This document shows, piece by piece, positions 3,541 to 33,823 of a DNA stretch of 41,791 nt. The notes beneath the pieces are model-generated. The model worked only from the letters and a program-made list of their open reading frames with translations, did not search any database and was not told the DNA's origin. Every line of letters starts with the position of its first letter. Within the stretch, counting starts at the first letter, position 1. Origin of the DNA: Acidobacteriota bacterium (lineage in GTDB: Bacteria > Acidobacteriota > Thermoanaerobaculia > Thermoanaerobaculales > Sulfomarinibacteraceae); NCBI GenBank assembly GCA_022340665.1, contig JAJDNM010000018.1, positions 1 to 41,791 of the forward strand, given 5' to 3'. A program made the translations under genes and the position numbers.

Positions 3541-3651
3541 GAGGAATTCTGAATGAGGAATGAGGAATTTCCACCCACCCCACCGGATCAGTGATCGACG
3601 TAATGAGCAGGTGGGCGACATTCCTAATTCCTAATTCCTAATTCCTAATTC
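3541..3651. repeat. Heptad-armed inverted repeat, GAGGAAT/ATTCCTA type
   Basis: The left arm is GAGGAAT, TCTGAAT, GAGGAAT, GAGGAAT (3541-3568). The right arm is four exact ATTCCTA units plus ATTC (3620-3651), whose complement is TAGGAAT. Inside the arms are a C-rich block (CCACCCACCCCACC) and, on the right, GGTGGGC, which can also pair with it. The loop is about 25 bases. The element lies 14 bases after the zinc-ribbon stop codon and ends 18 bases before mnmA, so it covers the place where an mnmA -35 region would be. Confidence 0.85.
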
Positions 3652-3669: not shown

Positions 3670-4737
3670 GTGAAAATCGCGGTGTTGGCTTCCGGGGGAG
3701 TGGATTCGTCGGTGGCGCTGATGCGCCTGGTCGAGGAGGGTGGTCACGACCTCGCCGCGTTCTACCTCAAGATCTGGCTCGAGGACGAGATGGCCTTCCT
3801 CGGCTCCTGTCCGTGGGAAGAGGATCTCGCGTATGTGCGCTCGGTCTGCGAAACGGCGCGCGTCCCGCTCGAGGTCATATCGCTGCAGCAGGAGTACCTC
3901 AGCTCGGTTGTCGCCTACGCTCTCGCCGATCTCGATGTGGGCAGAACGCCCAGTCCGGACGTGATGTGCAACCGGCTGATCAAGTTCGGTGCCTTTGTCG
4001 ACCGGATCGGCGACCGTTTCGACTGTATCGCATCAGGGCACCACGCCCGGGTCGAGGAGCGGAACGGTCAGTTCCACCTTTTGCGTGGTGCTGATCCCAG
4101 GAAGGACCAGACCTATTTCCTGAGCCAGCTCACCCAGGCACAACTCGCCCGCTGCCGTTTCCCGATCGGGGACCTCACCAAGGTCGAGGTCCGGCGCGAA
4201 GCCCGGCGCCTCGGGCTTTCAAGCGCCGAGCGCCCCGACAGTCAGGGCATCTGCTTCCTCGGGCGGGTGCCGTTCGACGATTTCGTCCACCACCACCTCG
4301 GAGACCGGCCGGGCGAGATTCGTCGCGCATCGAACGGAGAGCTCCTGGGCCATCATCGCGGAGCGTGGTTTCACACAATCGGGCAGCGGCGCGGCCTCGG
4401 CCTCGCAGGCGGCCCATGGTACGTCGTGGGCAAGGACCTCGAGCACGATATCATCGAGGTCGCCCACGCCGACGAGCTCGAGGAATACGCCTGCCAATCA
4501 TTCCTGGTTGGCAACCCGCACTGGATCGCCGACCGGCCGACCCGAAAGGACCTCTCGGTCAGGATTCGTCACGGACAACGACTGGAACCGTGCACCGTCC
4601 AAGAGAACCCGGGCGGATCGATGACAGTGCAGTTCGATACGGTCGCCGATCCCGGCGTCGCGCCCGGTCAGTTCGCGGTGCTCTATGACGATGAAGAGTG
4701 CCTTGGAGGGGGGATCATCGACTCGACCGAGAGATGA
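3670..4737 (+). CDS. mnmA: tRNA-specific 2-thiouridylase MnmA
   Basis: MnmA adenylates and thiolates U34 of the Lys, Glu and Gln tRNAs in the cytoplasm, using sulfur relayed from a cysteine desulfurase. The protein has 355 residues, normal for the family. The PP-loop SGGVDSS is at residues 8-14. The two catalytic cysteines are present: Cys100 in the PDVMCNRLIKF segment and Cys195 in DSQGICF. The tRNA-contact motif GHHARV and the RKDQTYFL segment are also seen. It starts with GTG at 3670. No Shine-Dalgarno is visible, but TATCCT sits six bases before the start. Confidence 0.96.
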   Translation: MKIAVLASGGVDSSVALMRLVEEGGHDLAAFYLKIWLEDEMAFLGSCPWEEDLAYVRSVCETARVPLEVISLQQEYLSSVVAYALADLDVGRTPSPDVMCNRLIKFGAFVDRIGDRFDCIASGHHARVEERNGQFHLLRGADPRKDQTYFLSQLTQAQLARCRFPIGDLTKVEVRREARRLGLSSAERPDSQGICFLGRVPFDDFVHHHLGDRPGEIRRASNGELLGHHRGAWFHTIGQRRGLGLAGGPWYVVGKDLEHDIIEVAHADELEEYACQSFLVGNPHWIADRPTRKDLSVRIRHGQRLEPCTVQENPGGSMTVQFDTVADPGVAPGQFAVLYDDEECLGGGIIDSTER

Positions 4738-21705: not shown

Positions 21706-22779
21706 ATGCTTCACGCGGTCATCATGGCTGGTGGATCCGGGACCAGGTTCTGGCCGGCTTCGCGATGTAATCGCCCGAAGCAGTTCTTGACTCTCGCCGG
21801 TGACACGCCGCTGCTACGGGTGACATACGAACGGCTCGAGGGCCTGGTCCCACCGGAGAGAGTGTGGGTCGTGACGACCGTTGCAACCGCCCAGGCGACC
21901 CGCTCGATGCTTCCCGAGCTGCCACCAACCAACATTCTCGCCGAACCGGTTGGCCGCAATACGGCAGCCTGTGCGGGTCTCGCAGCCCATGCGACGCTGG
22001 TCAACGATCCCGACGCAGTTTGCATTATCCTCCCCGCCGACCATGTCATCGGCCAGGAGGATCGCTTCCGCTCAGCAATGGACGCGGGAGCGAAATTGGT
22101 GGCCCGGGAGGGTGGCCTCCTGACTTTCGGTATTCAGCCGAATTACCCGGAGACCGGATACGGCTATCTCGAGCTCGGCGAGGAACACTCACGCGAGAGC
22201 GAATGGGTCATCCACCGCTTGCAACGCTTTGTCGAGAAACCCGACGTCGAGAGCGCACAGCGCTACGTGGACTCGAAACGATTCCTATGGAACGCTGGCA
22301 TCTTCGCCTGGCGCGCAGCTGATTTGCTCGATGAGATTCGACGGCAGCTGCCCGAGCTTGCCGACGGCCTCGATCGCATCGCCTCATCCGTCGGGACATC
22401 TGCTTTCGACTCGGTGCTCGCCGAAGCCTACCCGCACCTTCCAGCGACGTCGGTCGATTTCGGCGTCATGGAAAACGCCGAGCAGTGTTGGACGGTCCCG
22501 GTCGATTTCCCCTGGTCTGATGTCGGATCGTGGCCGGCCCTCGAGGGCGTACTCGCCGCCGACGATGCCGGCAACCGGGGGCGCGGTCGTGTTCACGTCG
22601 AAAACGCCGGCGACAATGTGCTCGTCAGCACCGGCCCGGTCCTGTCAGTCGTCGGCGTCAAAGATCTGGTGGTAGTCGCCACACCCGATGCGGTGCTGGT
22701 GGTACCGAAGGACGAGGCACAGCGGGTCAAGAACGTGGTCGAGGCGCTGAAGGCAAAGGGCTGGGACGACGTCCTCTAA
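21706..22779 (+). CDS. manC: Mannose-1-phosphate guanylyltransferase
   Basis: The enzyme makes GDP-mannose from mannose-1-phosphate and GTP for envelope polysaccharides. The protein has 357 residues, the short form without the C-terminal cupin isomerase domain. The N-terminal pyrophosphorylase signature MAGGSGTRFWP (about 7-17) and RPKQFL (about 23-28) are present. EPVGRNTAAC, ILPADHVI, FVEKPD, WNAGIFAW and PWSDVGSW follow in the family order. It is transcribed alone on the plus strand and converges with the second NtrC-type regulator gene across a heptad-repeat element. Other members of this nucleotidyltransferase family (for example cytidylyl or glucose-1-phosphate enzymes) lack this exact set of motifs. 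Confidence 0.94.
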   Translation: MLHAVIMAGGSGTRFWPASRCNRPKQFLTLAGDTPLLRVTYERLEGLVPPERVWVVTTVATAQATRSMLPELPPTNILAEPVGRNTAACAGLAAHATLVNDPDAVCIILPADHVIGQEDRFRSAMDAGAKLVAREGGLLTFGIQPNYPETGYGYLELGEEHSRESEWVIHRLQRFVEKPDVESAQRYVDSKRFLWNAGIFAWRAADLLDEIRRQLPELADGLDRIASSVGTSAFDSVLAEAYPHLPATSVDFGVMENAEQCWTVPVDFPWSDVGSWPALEGVLAADDAGNRGRGRVHVENAGDNVLVSTGPVLSVVGVKDLVVVATPDAVLVVPKDEAQRVKNVVEALKAKGWDDVL

Positions 22780-22781
22780 TC

Positions 22782-22886
22782 GAGTTCTGAGTTCTCAGTT
22801 TTGAGTTTTGAGTTCCACCCACCTCCCCATTTCTGAATCGGGCGGATAAGGGAATACTCAAAACTCATAACTCAACACTCAAAACT
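22782..22886. repeat. Heptad-armed inverted repeat, GAGTTTT type
   Basis: The left arm has five 7-base units: GAGTTCT, GAGTTCT, CAGTTTT, GAGTTTT, GAGTTCC. The core is ACCCACCTCCCC, a short loop, then GGGCGG. The right arm is ACTCAAA, ACTCATA, ACTCAAC, ACTCAAA, ACT, the inverted counterpart. It fills the whole gap between the convergent genes manC (stop 22779) and the NtrC-type regulator (stop 22885-22887), and its last bases overlap that stop codon. The right arm is nearly identical to that of the copy at 32823-32922. Confidence 0.88.
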
Positions 22887-24276
22887 ATTTCTTCTCCCTC
22901 AGCCCATACTGGTCGAGCTTGCGATAAAGGGTGGATCTTCCGATGCCGAGCTGGCGTGCAACGTCGGAGAGGTTGCCCTTGTTGTTCTCCATTGCGCGGA
23001 TAATAGCCTCACGCTCGAGCTCCTCGAGGTTGAGAGTGCCGGTACCGACCGGGGCGGGGGCCTCCACCGCTGGTATCGTCTTGCCAGACGCGACCGCCGA
23101 TTCTCCGCCGATTCCCGACGGCAGATCGTCGAAGGTGAGCTCGAGGCCGGAGGATACGAGGAGTGTCCGATGGATGACATTTTCCAGCTCACGTACATTG
23201 CCCGGCCAGCCATGGCTCGACATCGCTTCCATCGCTCGAGCCTCGACCCTGGTGACTCTCTTGCCGGCGTCCCTGGCGTATTTCTCGAGGAAGTGTTCGA
23301 CCAACAGCGGGATGTCCTCGCGTCGGTCACGCAACGGCGGCAGTGTGATCGGGAAGACGACCAGCCGGTAGTAAAGGTCCTGGCGGAAGGATCCTTCCTC
23401 GACCATTTTCGCGAGATCGCGGTTTGAGGCCGAAATGACCCGCACGTCGAGCTCGATCGTCTCGGTGCCGCCGACCCGTTGCAGAACGCGCTCCTGCAGC
23501 ACCCTCAGCAATCTGGCCTGGGCCGAGGGAGACATTTCGCCGACCTCGTCGAGAAATATCGTGCCACCGGAAGCCTGTTCAAACTTGCCCGGATGGGTGG
23601 CGACGGCGCCGGTAAAGGCGCCCTTCTCGTGACCGAAAAGTTCGCTCTCCTGCAACCCTTCCGGGATGGCTGCGCAATTGACATCGACAAATGGCCCATC
23701 CGAGCGTAGCGAGGCGTAGTGGATGGCCTTTGCCACCAGCTCCTTGCCCGTGCCGCTCTCGCCAGCAATGAAGACGGTGATCTCGGATTCGAGGACTTTC
23801 TCGATCTGGTCGTAGACCTTTCGCATTGCAGCCGAGGAGCCAACAATGTTCCGTAGGTGGTAGCGGTCGGAGAGCTCCTCCTTGAGACGCGCCACCTCCT
23901 TCTCGAGGCTGCGGTGGGAAACGGCGTTACCCAGAGTCGTCAACAAACGTTCCTGGTCGATTGGTTTGGTCAGATAGTCGTAGGCGCCGAGCTTGGTGAC
24001 CTCGACGGCTCGTTGAACGTCATCATCTGCAGTCACCATGATGACCGGAATCGTCGGATGGCGCCGGCTGATCTCCTTGAGCACCTCGACGCCGTCGACC
24101 TCGGGCATCATCAGGTCGAGGAGAATCGCGTCCGGCACGCTACCGGAGCTCGCGAGGACCTCCGCTCCGGATGCGAACGTATCCACCCCGTGCCCGGCTT
24201 CGGTGATGATGAAGCTGAGCAGCTCCCTGACCGCCGGATCGTCGTCTACCACCCAGATCATTTTGCTTTCGGTCAT
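22885..24276 (-). CDS. Second NtrC-family sigma-54-dependent response regulator
   Basis: The protein has 463 residues. The receiver domain has phospho-acceptor Asp54 in AILLDLMMPE and a TKPID segment near 105. The AAA+ domain has Walker A GESGTGKE, GAFTGA and Walker B GTIFLDE, all intact. The C-terminal Fis-type helix-turn-helix (NLSDVARQLGIGRSTLYRKLDQYGL) is canonical. GAGGGG lies a few bases before the ATG and TAAACT ten bases before it, so this gene may have its own promoter although it trails the long housekeeping cluster on the same strand. No kinase gene is adjacent, so its partner is elsewhere. Confidence 0.95.
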   Translation of the reverse strand: MTESKMIWVVDDDPAVRELLSFIITEAGHGVDTFASGAEVLASSGSVPDAILLDLMMPEVDGVEVLKEISRRHPTIPVIMVTADDDVQRAVEVTKLGAYDYLTKPIDQERLLTTLGNAVSHRSLEKEVARLKEELSDRYHLRNIVGSSAAMRKVYDQIEKVLESEITVFIAGESGTGKELVAKAIHYASLRSDGPFVDVNCAAIPEGLQESELFGHEKGAFTGAVATHPGKFEQASGGTIFLDEVGEMSPSAQARLLRVLQERVLQRVGGTETIELDVRVISASNRDLAKMVEEGSFRQDLYYRLVVFPITLPPLRDRREDIPLLVEHFLEKYARDAGKRVTRVEARAMEAMSSHGWPGNVRELENVIHRTLLVSSGLELTFDDLPSGIGGESAVASGKTIPAVEAPAPVGTGTLNLEELEREAIIRAMENNKGNLSDVARQLGIGRSTLYRKLDQYGLREKK

Positions 24277-29338: not shown

Positions 29339-29411
29339 GAGTAGAGAGTTTTGAGTTTTGAGTTCCCGCCCACCCTCCCGCCGATCTCCGGTTGGCTAGA
29401 CTCGAACTCCA
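29339..29411. repeat. Heptad-armed repeat, GAGTTTT type, right arm decayed
   Basis: The left arm is GAGTAGA, GAGTTTT, GAGTTTT, GAGTTCC, followed by the C-rich block CGCCCACCCTCCCGCC. The right arm is reduced to GACTCGAACTCC, a weak match to inverted heptads. It lies between the rplU promoter and the stop codon of the ELWxxDGT gene. Confidence 0.7.
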
Positions 29412-30970: not shown

Positions 30971-31005
30971 GAGTTTTGAGTTTTGAGTTTTGAGTTTTGA
31001 GTTCA
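30971..31005. repeat. GAGTTTT heptad array, single arm
   Basis: Four exact GAGTTTT units are followed by GAGTTCA. The C-rich block and the right arm seen in other copies are missing. It is in the same orientation as the array at 29339, on the other side of the ELWxxDGT gene. Confidence 0.85.
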
Positions 31006-31050
31006 TCAAAGTCTGGTGTCGATGTTTCCATTGTCAAGCGGCAGGCGCCT

Positions 31051-31125
31051 GTACCTTGTGTCCTGTATCTGGGTGGGTGGGTGGATCGAGTATCCAGTAT
31101 CCAGCATCAAGTATCGGGCGGGCGG
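31051..31125. repeat. Heptad element, AGTATCC type, with G-rich blocks
   Basis: GTACCTT, GTGTCCT and GTATCTG are followed by GGTGGGTGGGTGG. Next come AGTATCC, AGTATCC, AGCATCA, AGTATCG and then GGCGGGCGG. The two heptad runs are similar in direct rather than inverted orientation, and both G-rich blocks are on the plus strand, so it looks like a rearranged member. The G-runs could form a quadruplex. Confidence 0.65.
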
Positions 31126-31673: not shown

Positions 31674-32147
31674 TCACGACGCGCCGTTCTCGTAAATGGC
31701 ATCTTCCAGTCCCGGTTCGATGATTTCGAATCCCGGGATCGAGTCGTCGGCCAGCACCGCGTCGACCTCGGCCAGAATCTGCTCGACGGCTAATTCCGTC
31801 GCAGCCCCGTTGTCAACCACCACCGGTGCCGGCGCCCACAACACACGTAGCGCAATCGCCGTCACCAGAATCGCGGCAGCGGCGAGAATCGGCCGTATCC
31901 ATCGCCGATTTCTCTGCGTTCTGACAACCGGCGTCACCGGCAGCTTGGCCATGATCTCTTCCCGCTGCCGGTCCCAGTCCGGAGCCTCGGCTACGAGGTG
32001 CTGACGCTGTTGCTCGATCGCCTCCGCCATGAGCGAGACCCGCTGGCGGCAGCTCAGGCACGACCCGAGGTGCTGCGCAGCCACCGCCTCGAGTTCGAGA
32101 CAGGCCACCGCGGCGGTGATCTCATGTTCTTCGAGATGGCTCTTCAT
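31674..32147 (-). CDS. Membrane anti-sigma factor with zinc-finger-like N-terminus
   Basis: The protein has 157 residues. The N-terminal region contains HLGSCLSCRQRV, the HxxxCxxC zinc-binding pattern of anti-sigma (ZAS/zf-HC2) proteins. One transmembrane segment lies at about 86-105 (ILAAAAILVTAIALRVLW), and the 50-residue periplasmic tail is acidic. It would hold the adjacent ECF sigma factor at the membrane. Its start overlaps the sigma gene by four bases, which is usual for cognate pairs. Confidence 0.85.
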   Translation of the reverse strand: MKSHLEEHEITAAVACLELEAVAAQHLGSCLSCRQRVSLMAEAIEQQRQHLVAEAPDWDRQREEIMAKLPVTPVVRTQRNRRWIRPILAAAAILVTAIALRVLWAPAPVVVDNGAATELAVEQILAEVDAVLADDSIPGFEIIEPGLEDAIYENGAS

Positions 32148-32734
32148 CTGTATGCTCCCAACTCCTCGCGCAGCCGGTGCACCGCCCGGTGCAGCTGCGT
32201 CTTGACCGTCCCCACGTGAACGTCGAGGACTTCCGCGATCTCTTCCAGCTCCATCTCGGCGTAGAAACGGAGGCGGAAGATCTCGCGTTGGCGCGGGGGC
32301 AGATCCTCCTCGAGCGCGGTGAGGGAGGCGACGGCCTGTTTCTGCATCGATCGGGCCTCGGGTCCGGCATCCCTGTCCGGCAGCTTGTCGAGGAGGCCGA
32401 CATCATCGTCGGTATCGTGCTCCTCTTCGACCACCGCCTCGCGACGACGACGACGCAGCTCGTCGAGGCAGGTGTTGATGGCGATCCGAGTGAGCCAGGT
32501 CGAGAAGGCGGCACGCCGATCGAAATCACCTATCCGCGTGAAGGACTTGACCAGGCTGTCCTGCGCCGCCGCGTCTGCGTCCGCCGCTCCGACATACTGG
32601 CGACACACCATCCACACCCGGCGCTGGTGGCGGTTGACGAGCTCGCCGAAGGCATTGCGGTCGCCGTTCTGCGCCCGCAGCACCAACGCATCATCCGCTT
32701 CGGACAGATCGGTGCGAGACGGATCCATGGCCAT
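32144..32734 (-). CDS. ECF-family RNA polymerase sigma factor
   Basis: The protein has 196 residues. Sigma region 2 includes LVNRHQRRVWMVCRQYVG, DAAAQDSLVKSFTRIGDF and FSTWLTRIAINTCLDELRRRRR. Region 4 includes LPPRQREIFRLRFYAEMELEEIAEVLDVHVGTVKTQLHRAVHRLRE. The frame is open upstream to 32896, but that part reads through heptad repeats (NSKLETENSKQ), so the start is placed at the ATG at 32734; ATG at 32728 is equally possible. It forms an operon with the anti-sigma and Spy-like genes. A possible ECF-type promoter lies just upstream. Confidence 0.92.
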   Translation of the reverse strand: MAMDPSRTDLSEADDALVLRAQNGDRNAFGELVNRHQRRVWMVCRQYVGAADADAAAQDSLVKSFTRIGDFDRRAAFSTWLTRIAINTCLDELRRRRREAVVEEEHDTDDDVGLLDKLPDRDAGPEARSMQKQAVASLTALEEDLPPRQREIFRLRFYAEMELEEIAEVLDVHVGTVKTQLHRAVHRLREELGAYR

Positions 32735-32781: not shown

Positions 32782-32822
32782 AACCACAAAGCCAGTTAAA
32801 ATCGCCCCAGGATTCCTGTTTT

Positions 32823-32922
32823 GAGTTCTCAGTTTCGAGTTTTGAGTTGTCCCCCACCCACCCCTGTTCGATTCGGGCGGGCGGGCGGGAACTCAAAACT
32901 CATAACTCTCAACTCAAAACTC
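32823..32922. repeat. Heptad-armed inverted repeat, GAGTTTT type, complete copy
   Basis: The left arm is GAGTTCT, CAGTTTC, GAGTTTT, GAGTTGT. The core is CCCCCACCCACCCC, a ten-base loop and GGGCGGGCGGGCGGG. The right arm is ACTCAAA, ACTCATA, ACTCTCA, ACTCAAA, ACTC. The C-block and G-block are also complementary, so the entire 100 bases can fold into one hairpin. It lies between the sigma gene and the lipid kinase gene. The kinase's last codons and its stop (32909-32911) are inside the right arm. Confidence 0.9.
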
Positions 32923-33817
32923 GGTCCTCGGTTGGCACAACCACCGTTAGCGCTCCCGGCACCACCTCGAAGCGAGCCACCGGCGGCTCGAGGGTCACCG
33001 AGTTTCCGTCGAGGTGGGCGGGCAGGGGCTCGGAGAAGTGCAGCTCGAGCCACCGCGACTGCAGCTCGTGGCTTCCCCTCGAGGACCCGAGGGTGCCACG
33101 CATGGCCGCGACCAGCCGCGTCAATCGGCCCAGAGTCCCGACGTCCTCCGCCAGACAGGCATCGAGGAGACCGTCGTCCGGCACGGCGGCCGGGGTCAGG
33201 GCGAAGCCGCCGCCGGTCGTCGGACCGCCATGGACTGCGAGAATCAGCATGGTGCCGTCGAAGTTATCCCCTTCGGTCACCATCCGCACAGTCTGCATCC
33301 GGTAACGAAAAAGCGACTGTAGAACGGCGGCCAGGTACAGGGCGAATCCTCCCAGAATCGGGTGCTTCGCCGCCTTGAGCTTCATCGCGCGGTCGTTGAT
33401 GTCGCCGGTCATACCGACGCCGATGGCATTCAACACCACGTGGTCGCCGATGGCGATGAGGTCGACCGCTCGAGTACGACCTCCGACCGCGACCCTCGCC
33501 GCGGTTTCGAGGTCCGTGGGTACTCCGAGAGTTCGTGCGCCGTCATTTCCCGTTCCCAGGGGCAGGATCGCGAGCTCGCCGTTTCCGGCCCGGTGGAGCC
33601 CCTCCGCCGCCTCGCAGACTGTGCCGTCCCCGCCGGCTACCACCACCCGCCGAACACCGTCCGCGACCGCTGCGGCCGCGAGCTCGGTCGCATGCCACGG
33701 CGCTTCGGTGAACACCACCGGCGCCGACACCCCCCAACCGGCCAGCTGCTCTTCGATCCGCGGCCACTCGCGGCCGAGCCTTCCGCTGTCCGCCGCCGGA
33801 TTGACGATGACCCGCAC
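32909..33817 (-). CDS. Diacylglycerol-kinase-family lipid kinase
   Basis: The protein has 302 residues. The DAGK catalytic core has NPAADSG near the N-terminus, VVAGGDGTVCEAAEGL (GGDGT nucleotide loop) and LPLGTGNDGARTLG, followed by the beta-sandwich domain of the YegS/DgkB/BmrU family. These phosphorylate diacylglycerol or related lipids. The frame allows TTG at 33823 or GTG at 33817; TAGGCT lies exactly six bases before the GTG, and no Shine-Dalgarno fits either, so GTG is chosen. The C-terminal residues RVLS and the stop are encoded by a heptad-repeat arm, so the original C-terminus may have been altered when the repeat arrived. Confidence 0.88.
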   Translation of the reverse strand: MRVIVNPAADSGRLGREWPRIEEQLAGWGVSAPVVFTEAPWHATELAAAAVADGVRRVVVAGGDGTVCEAAEGLHRAGNGELAILPLGTGNDGARTLGVPTDLETAARVAVGGRTRAVDLIAIGDHVVLNAIGVGMTGDINDRAMKLKAAKHPILGGFALYLAAVLQSLFRYRMQTVRMVTEGDNFDGTMLILAVHGGPTTGGGFALTPAAVPDDGLLDACLAEDVGTLGRLTRLVAAMRGTLGSSRGSHELQSRWLELHFSEPLPAHLDGNSVTLEPPVARFEVVPGALTVVVPTEDRVLS

Positions 33818-33823
33818 GGCCAA

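Follow-up and report, generated by a model that had tools for sequence, protein, structure and literature searches.

Between a gene of the diacylglycerol kinase/YegS family and an ECF sigma factor gene, both read in the same direction, the window (the whole 41,791-nucleotide stretch of DNA analysed here) carries a repeat-built unit at positions 32823-32922. Direct reading of its letters gave a left arm of four heptamers (GAGTTCT CAGTTTC GAGTTTT GAGTTGT), the C-block CCCCCACCCACCCC, the loop TGTTCGATTC, the G-block GGGCGGGCGGGCGGG and a right arm of inverted heptamers (AACTCAA AACTCAT AACTCTC AACTCAA AACTC). Both arms were imperfect, with one left unit beginning with CAG and one right unit being AACTCTC; the G-block contained four perfect tracts. 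The features of the window were as follows.

487-585, no strand: related inverted pair built from different heptamers (GGCTTGA / CAGGCCT; heptamer arrays at 496-574), where a gamma-glutamyltranspeptidase gene ends
3544-3651, no strand: third full copy, with GAATNAG arms and a CCCACCCC/GGTGGGC core
21706-22779, plus strand: NTP_transferase/ManC family gene, neighbour of the second copy
22780-22887, no strand: second copy, occupying the entire gap between the stop codons of the convergent manC-like and response-regulator genes
22885-24276, minus strand: sigma-54 response regulator gene, neighbour of the second copy
29346-29371, plus strand: one-armed copy, with a GAGTTTT arm and a CCCGCCCACCC block, the right arm decayed
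30971-31115, no strand: composite of a (GAGTTTT)4.7 array (30971-31003), GGGTGGGTGGGTGG and an (ATCCAGT)n array (31085-31115), with GGGCGGGCGG just after
32144-32734, minus strand: ECF sigma factor gene, downstream neighbour of the reported element
32818-32848, no strand: left heptamer arm of the reported element (GAGTTNT units), which extends to 32818
32849-32889, no strand: core of the reported element (C-block, loop and G-block)
32890-32922, no strand: right inverted heptamer arm of the reported element, covering the last codons and the stop (32909-32911) of the YegS-like gene
32909-33823, minus strand: diacylglycerol kinase/YegS family gene, upstream neighbour of the reported element

When folded as RNA, both strands of 32823-32922 formed one long hairpin (MFE -52.1 and -61.0 kcal/mol; z -8.6 and -9.4), and folding as DNA gave a z of -6.0. 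The second copy (22782-22886) was laid out in the same order, but its core was weaker (CCACCCACCTCCCC ... GGGCGGATAAGGG); the RNA folds of its two strands reached -38.5 and -50.3 kcal/mol (z -5.9 and -7.8), and its DNA fold a z of -4.9. The first-pass annotation had described this layout, the folding of the whole unit as a single hairpin and the like-built copy some 10 kb away, and all of these were recovered at the positions it gave. The third copy has co-directional neighbours and lies a short way upstream of a gene of the tRNA-methyltransferase family (3670-4737).

Size, anatomy and lineage range of the hairpin family

The window encodes an Obg protein that shares 81% identity with its counterpart in Ca. 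Sulfomarinibacter kjeldsenii, whose contig gave the same matching positions as contig C18 of genome G002, listed as congeneric; the source genome (G000, a draft of 3.95 Mb split over 153 contigs) is therefore, judging by these matches, within or very near the marine-sediment Acidobacteriota genus Ca. Sulfomarinibacter (GTDB genus). Arrays and hairpins were counted in 1.108 Mb of this genome, about a quarter of the total, in which our own small codon-pair gene finder predicted 925 genes and a coding fraction of 90%. Period spectra, shuffled sequence and the arm/C-block junction pattern served as controls; a reversed heptamer pattern was dropped as an independent control since ACTCAAA read backwards gives a rotation of the same heptamer. 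A GANT-only search pattern was rejected as too general, since it picks up many heptamer kinds across the phylum.

Tandem arrays of period 7 numbered 196 per 1.108 Mb, versus 1 in shuffled sequence, and 175 of the 196 lay for the most part outside coding sequence. At periods 4-6, 8-13 and 15-20 we found 0-14 arrays each, and periods 14 and 21 echoed the period-7 signal. Complete, non-redundant arm-core-arm hairpins numbered 68 in about 1.1 Mb, a density biased somewhat upward because part of the sampled contigs had been picked for having matches; their median length was 100 nt and their median core length 37 nt. The initial description of a dispersed hairpin family, drawn from two copies, is thus borne out by a far larger set, and also by the genome-wide count of junctions given below.

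The hairpins follow the order (GARTNNN)2-6, CCCRCCC, a variable loop, GGGYGGG and inverted heptamers. Arm units have the form GANTNNN, the strictness of which is partly by construction, as it was built into the search for complete hairpins, and are chiefly GAGTTTT, GAATTAG, GAATGAG, GAATTCG, GAATTTT and GATTTCG. Across the 68 copies, the first 16 bases of the core were 52% C and the last 16 bases 53% G. The mean RNA fold z of the copies was -4.9, with stems of up to about 45 nt per side including the repeat arms; in about 30% of copies, the predicted fold pairs half or less of the left arm with the right arm. Clusters of two arrays faced inward ('+-') in 26 cases versus 2 of the '-+' type (p = 3e-6). 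Moreover, both arms were of the same unit class, as defined by the third base, in 84% of copies versus 45% after permutation (maximum 65%), and several unit classes are used interchangeably within one genome. A core able to form a quadruplex or i-motif had been put forward as a property of the family; the four-tract pattern was present in only 10 of the 68 cores, so this idea does not describe the hairpin family and a G-quadruplex core was ruled out as a family trait. The feature common to the cores is C-rich/G-rich pairing.

The junction between arm and C-block, GARTNNNGARTN(1-4)CCCNCCC, occurred 113 times in the source genome, a genome-wide count free of the contig-sampling bias, versus a single match of the reversed control. 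Four incomplete sister genomes had 5-42 junctions each, and two genomes of the sister family had 28 and 6. Elsewhere in the Acidobacteriota (246 in one search and 32 of the order in another), there were at most about 3 per genome. The arm-core junction is common only in the genus and in one or two sister-family genomes; the 28 matches outside the genus belong to G036, of the same order. Heptamer arrays as such are far more widespread, being patchy across the phylum and present, sometimes inverted, in small samples of other phyla. Partly inverted arrays in contigs of Phycisphaerales, Desulforamulus and Ignavibacteriales (L072:5980-6063; L064:465-656, 1867-2220; L074:1887-2400) hint that such hairpins arise repeatedly in bacteria.

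A second form was also observed, with 15 copies (at most 3 mismatches) of TTGACAATTCAGCnnGACGAnTTATCGATTnGTTG at the core position, for example at G000:C90:108865-108899 and also in L239, L241, L245-L247 and others. This sequence is flanked by a GATACTG arm with a C-block on one side and by long ATCCARC/ATCGAGC arrays on the other, and looks like a putative sigma-70 promoter (TTGACA-N16/17-TATCGAT). Arrays of this form near gene starts were mostly upstream of them, with one orientation prevailing (21 versus 2), distances to gene starts being approximate because the gene finder is a simple, self-written one. A separate repeat family of about 180 bp (G000:C90:63595-63776; L114:3595-3776) was found in dozens of copies in the genus, at about 75-93% identity, and had no Rfam match.

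Placement at gene ends and in orthologous gaps

The hairpins start at a median of 8.5 nt from the stop codon, and the gene ends that border them comprised 86 3' ends versus 48 5' ends. Among gaps of at least 80 bp, hairpins were present in 27 of the 78 convergent gaps versus 40 of the 352 others (p = 3e-6), the latter being 32 per 245 co-directional and 8 per 107 divergent gaps. Divergent gaps were depleted (8 out of 67 copies, versus 107 divergent gaps out of 430; p = 0.008). The intergenic bias in question since the first pass held for most of the arrays, and the complete hairpins cluster near stop codons. Such a placement could also stem from coding and promoter regions not tolerating repeats.

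As in intrinsic terminators, a stable, GC-rich hairpin follows just after the stop codon; unlike them, the elements have no U-tract directly after the stem, and their long stem (about 45 nt per side) includes repeat arms. The missing U-tract makes classic intrinsic termination unlikely, and a pure intrinsic-terminator reading was dropped. Canonical U-tract terminators were found in 2 of the 55 convergent or co-directional gaps with a hairpin versus 29 of the 244 without (p = 0.09), a non-significant difference that is only suggestive of ordinary terminators being somewhat rarer where a hairpin is present. None was listed at the 32823-32922 and 22782-22886 elements.

At 11 sites compared in four sister genomes, heptamer arrays were present in 25 of the 28 orthologous gaps versus 9 of the 43 other gaps (p = 9e-9). 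Of the three orthologous gaps without heptamers, one had an inverted hexamer repeat, one a perfect 21-bp stem-loop and the third a hairpin rich in GC, one stem being swapped for another. In one sister genome (G004, L132), inverted hexamers (CGATAG) replace the heptamer hairpin in the orthologous YegS/ECF gap, and a CGATAG-like hexamer repeat occurs again in another of its gaps (L230).

Units and cores at orthologous gaps often differed between species. At the manC site, units were GAGTTNT in the window and in kjeldsenii and GAATTNT in three other species, with different cores; the right arm was letter-for-letter identical in the window and in kjeldsenii, whereas the left arm differed. At C132:107210, four species had GAATTAG, GAATTAG, GATTTCG with GAATTAG, and GAATTCG. 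In other genera of the family, the manC site was a 19-base gap without the element in one case and a long gap with different repeats in another. Related species keep a hairpin at the same gene ends in different 7-base words, a comparison of sequences which suggests that shape and place may be maintained above sequence.

Known relatives and a possible role at transcript ends

The claim that the element matches nothing known stood in part: Rfam models gave no match in the window and four further pieces, and the C/G core is specific to the lineage, but heptamer pairs that face inward just after stop codons have already been described in Xanthomonas (PMC4692102). These inverted GGGAATC heptamers are the nearest relative known, with about 4 units, 70-75 inward inverted pairs near stop codons and an unexplained function (PMC4692102). 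Like the Xanthomonas/Nostoc (GGGANTN)n and GGGGA(C/T)T repeats, the arrays described here have a period of 7 and about 4 units, are intergenic, lie at gene ends and are rare between divergent genes; as in Xanthomonas, their places are kept between species while the sequence varies (PMC4692102). In contrast, the Xanthomonas/Nostoc units are G-tracts able to form G4 (GGGAATC), whereas those found here include GAGTTTT, GAATTAG and GAATTCG; moreover, no C-block/G-block core is described there, and one unit family is used per species instead of several unit classes per genome (PMC4692102). In Xanthomonas, G4-capable heptamer repeats coincide with transcript starts or stops more often than control repeats do (PMC4692102).

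Other known systems share fewer features. Short tandem heptamers are also found in the STRR sequences of cyanobacteria (Calothrix; cited in PMC4692102), a likeness across phyla in the tandem layout; the accessible literature on STRR reports no arm-core-arm hairpins. The Beggiatoaceae TAACTGA repeats likewise form abundant intergenic heptamer arrays, but these are direct, mostly upstream of start codons and inverted in only one case (PMC4679880), whereas the hairpins in our genus are inverted and at gene ends. REP elements are GC-rich palindromes at 3' ends, have no U-tract and stabilise RNA 3' ends without terminating (PMC13289151). Our hairpins, too, are GC-rich palindromes that sit at the 3' ends of genes and are seldom seen between divergent ones; lacking a U-tract, they resemble REP elements more than intrinsic terminators. 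By analogy they may be called REP/BIME-like in place and presumed role. To our knowledge, REP elements carry no heptamer arms.

The reading towards which we lean, with moderate confidence, is that the reported element belongs to a genus-specific family of 3'-end hairpins whose stem protects transcript ends or blocks read-through, in both directions. Placement after stop codons, enrichment in convergent gaps, stems on both strands, paired change of the arms and replacement of one stem by another argue for a structure that is used where transcripts end, whichever their direction. Transcription from either side would yield one long stem, heptamer arm on heptamer arm, with the C-block/G-block stem as its cap. 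Acting in the RNA directly after the stop codon, in both directions, this stem would stop 3'-to-5' exonucleases and hold back read-through or antisense RNA coming from the adjacent gene, as REP elements of E. coli do for transcript ends. We infer that the hairpin is transcribed and stabilises or terminates, and that slippage, together with gene conversion or template switching from one arm or one copy to another, renews its arms. The paired change of the arms can reflect selection for pairing, or template switching.

Functionless junk is a less probable explanation, though one to be taken seriously: 7-bp arrays would arise by polymerase slippage, turn into palindromes through template switching and persist after stop codons, where they do least harm. 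The heptamer excess is a known bacterial trend, with over-representation in many bacteria, and has been ascribed to slippage (PMC4692102); period-7 arrays without the C/G core are common in unrelated bacteria, and units and cores change fast between species. Against this stand the fixed register between arm and core (GARTTCCCRCCC or GAATGCCRCCCACCC), the narrow length range (about 100 nt) and the retention in orthologous gaps despite changed sequence. Rather improbable, in our view, is that selection acts on shape and place alone while the two heptamer arms are rewritten jointly by a dedicated or semi-dedicated copying process; if this were true, orthologous gene ends would carry one hairpin spelled in different 7-base words.

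It is doubtful that the family is a MITE or REP-like element, non-autonomous and mobilised by a transposase in trans. The copies do have terminal inverted repeats, as MITEs have, 34 of the 68 align with another copy over at least 80% of their length (best identity about 78-83%), and Y1 (REP-type) transposase genes are present in the genome (five Y1 matches in G000). However, genomes without the hairpin have Y1 genes too and none was found in the carrier G001 (65% complete), and no clear link to a REP transposase as the driver emerged; comparison by eye with orthologous gaps lacking the element revealed no target-site duplication, copies remain in place at orthologous gaps, arm classes can differ within a copy, and cores differ even between orthologues. 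Equally doubtful is a DNA-level element between converging transcription units (a cruciform, a G-quadruplex/i-motif or a nucleoid or topoisomerase protein site): the hairpin folds as DNA too, looks alike from either strand, is enriched between convergent genes, where positive supercoils come together, and has a perfect four-tract G-block in the window copy, but few cores carry a G4 or i-motif pattern and the arm sequence is too variable for a simple protein site.

The excess of 7-base tandem repeats in bacteria is a long-standing observation for which no function has been accepted. The set found in this genus is dense and lineage-limited, its anatomy is clear, its place at gene ends is fixed, and at orthologous sites the hairpin is kept with changed words, which makes the question of whether the structure is selected or is slippage junk directly testable. 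If the transcript-end reading is correct, these hairpins may be a way in which some bacteria finish or protect their transcripts without U-tract terminators.
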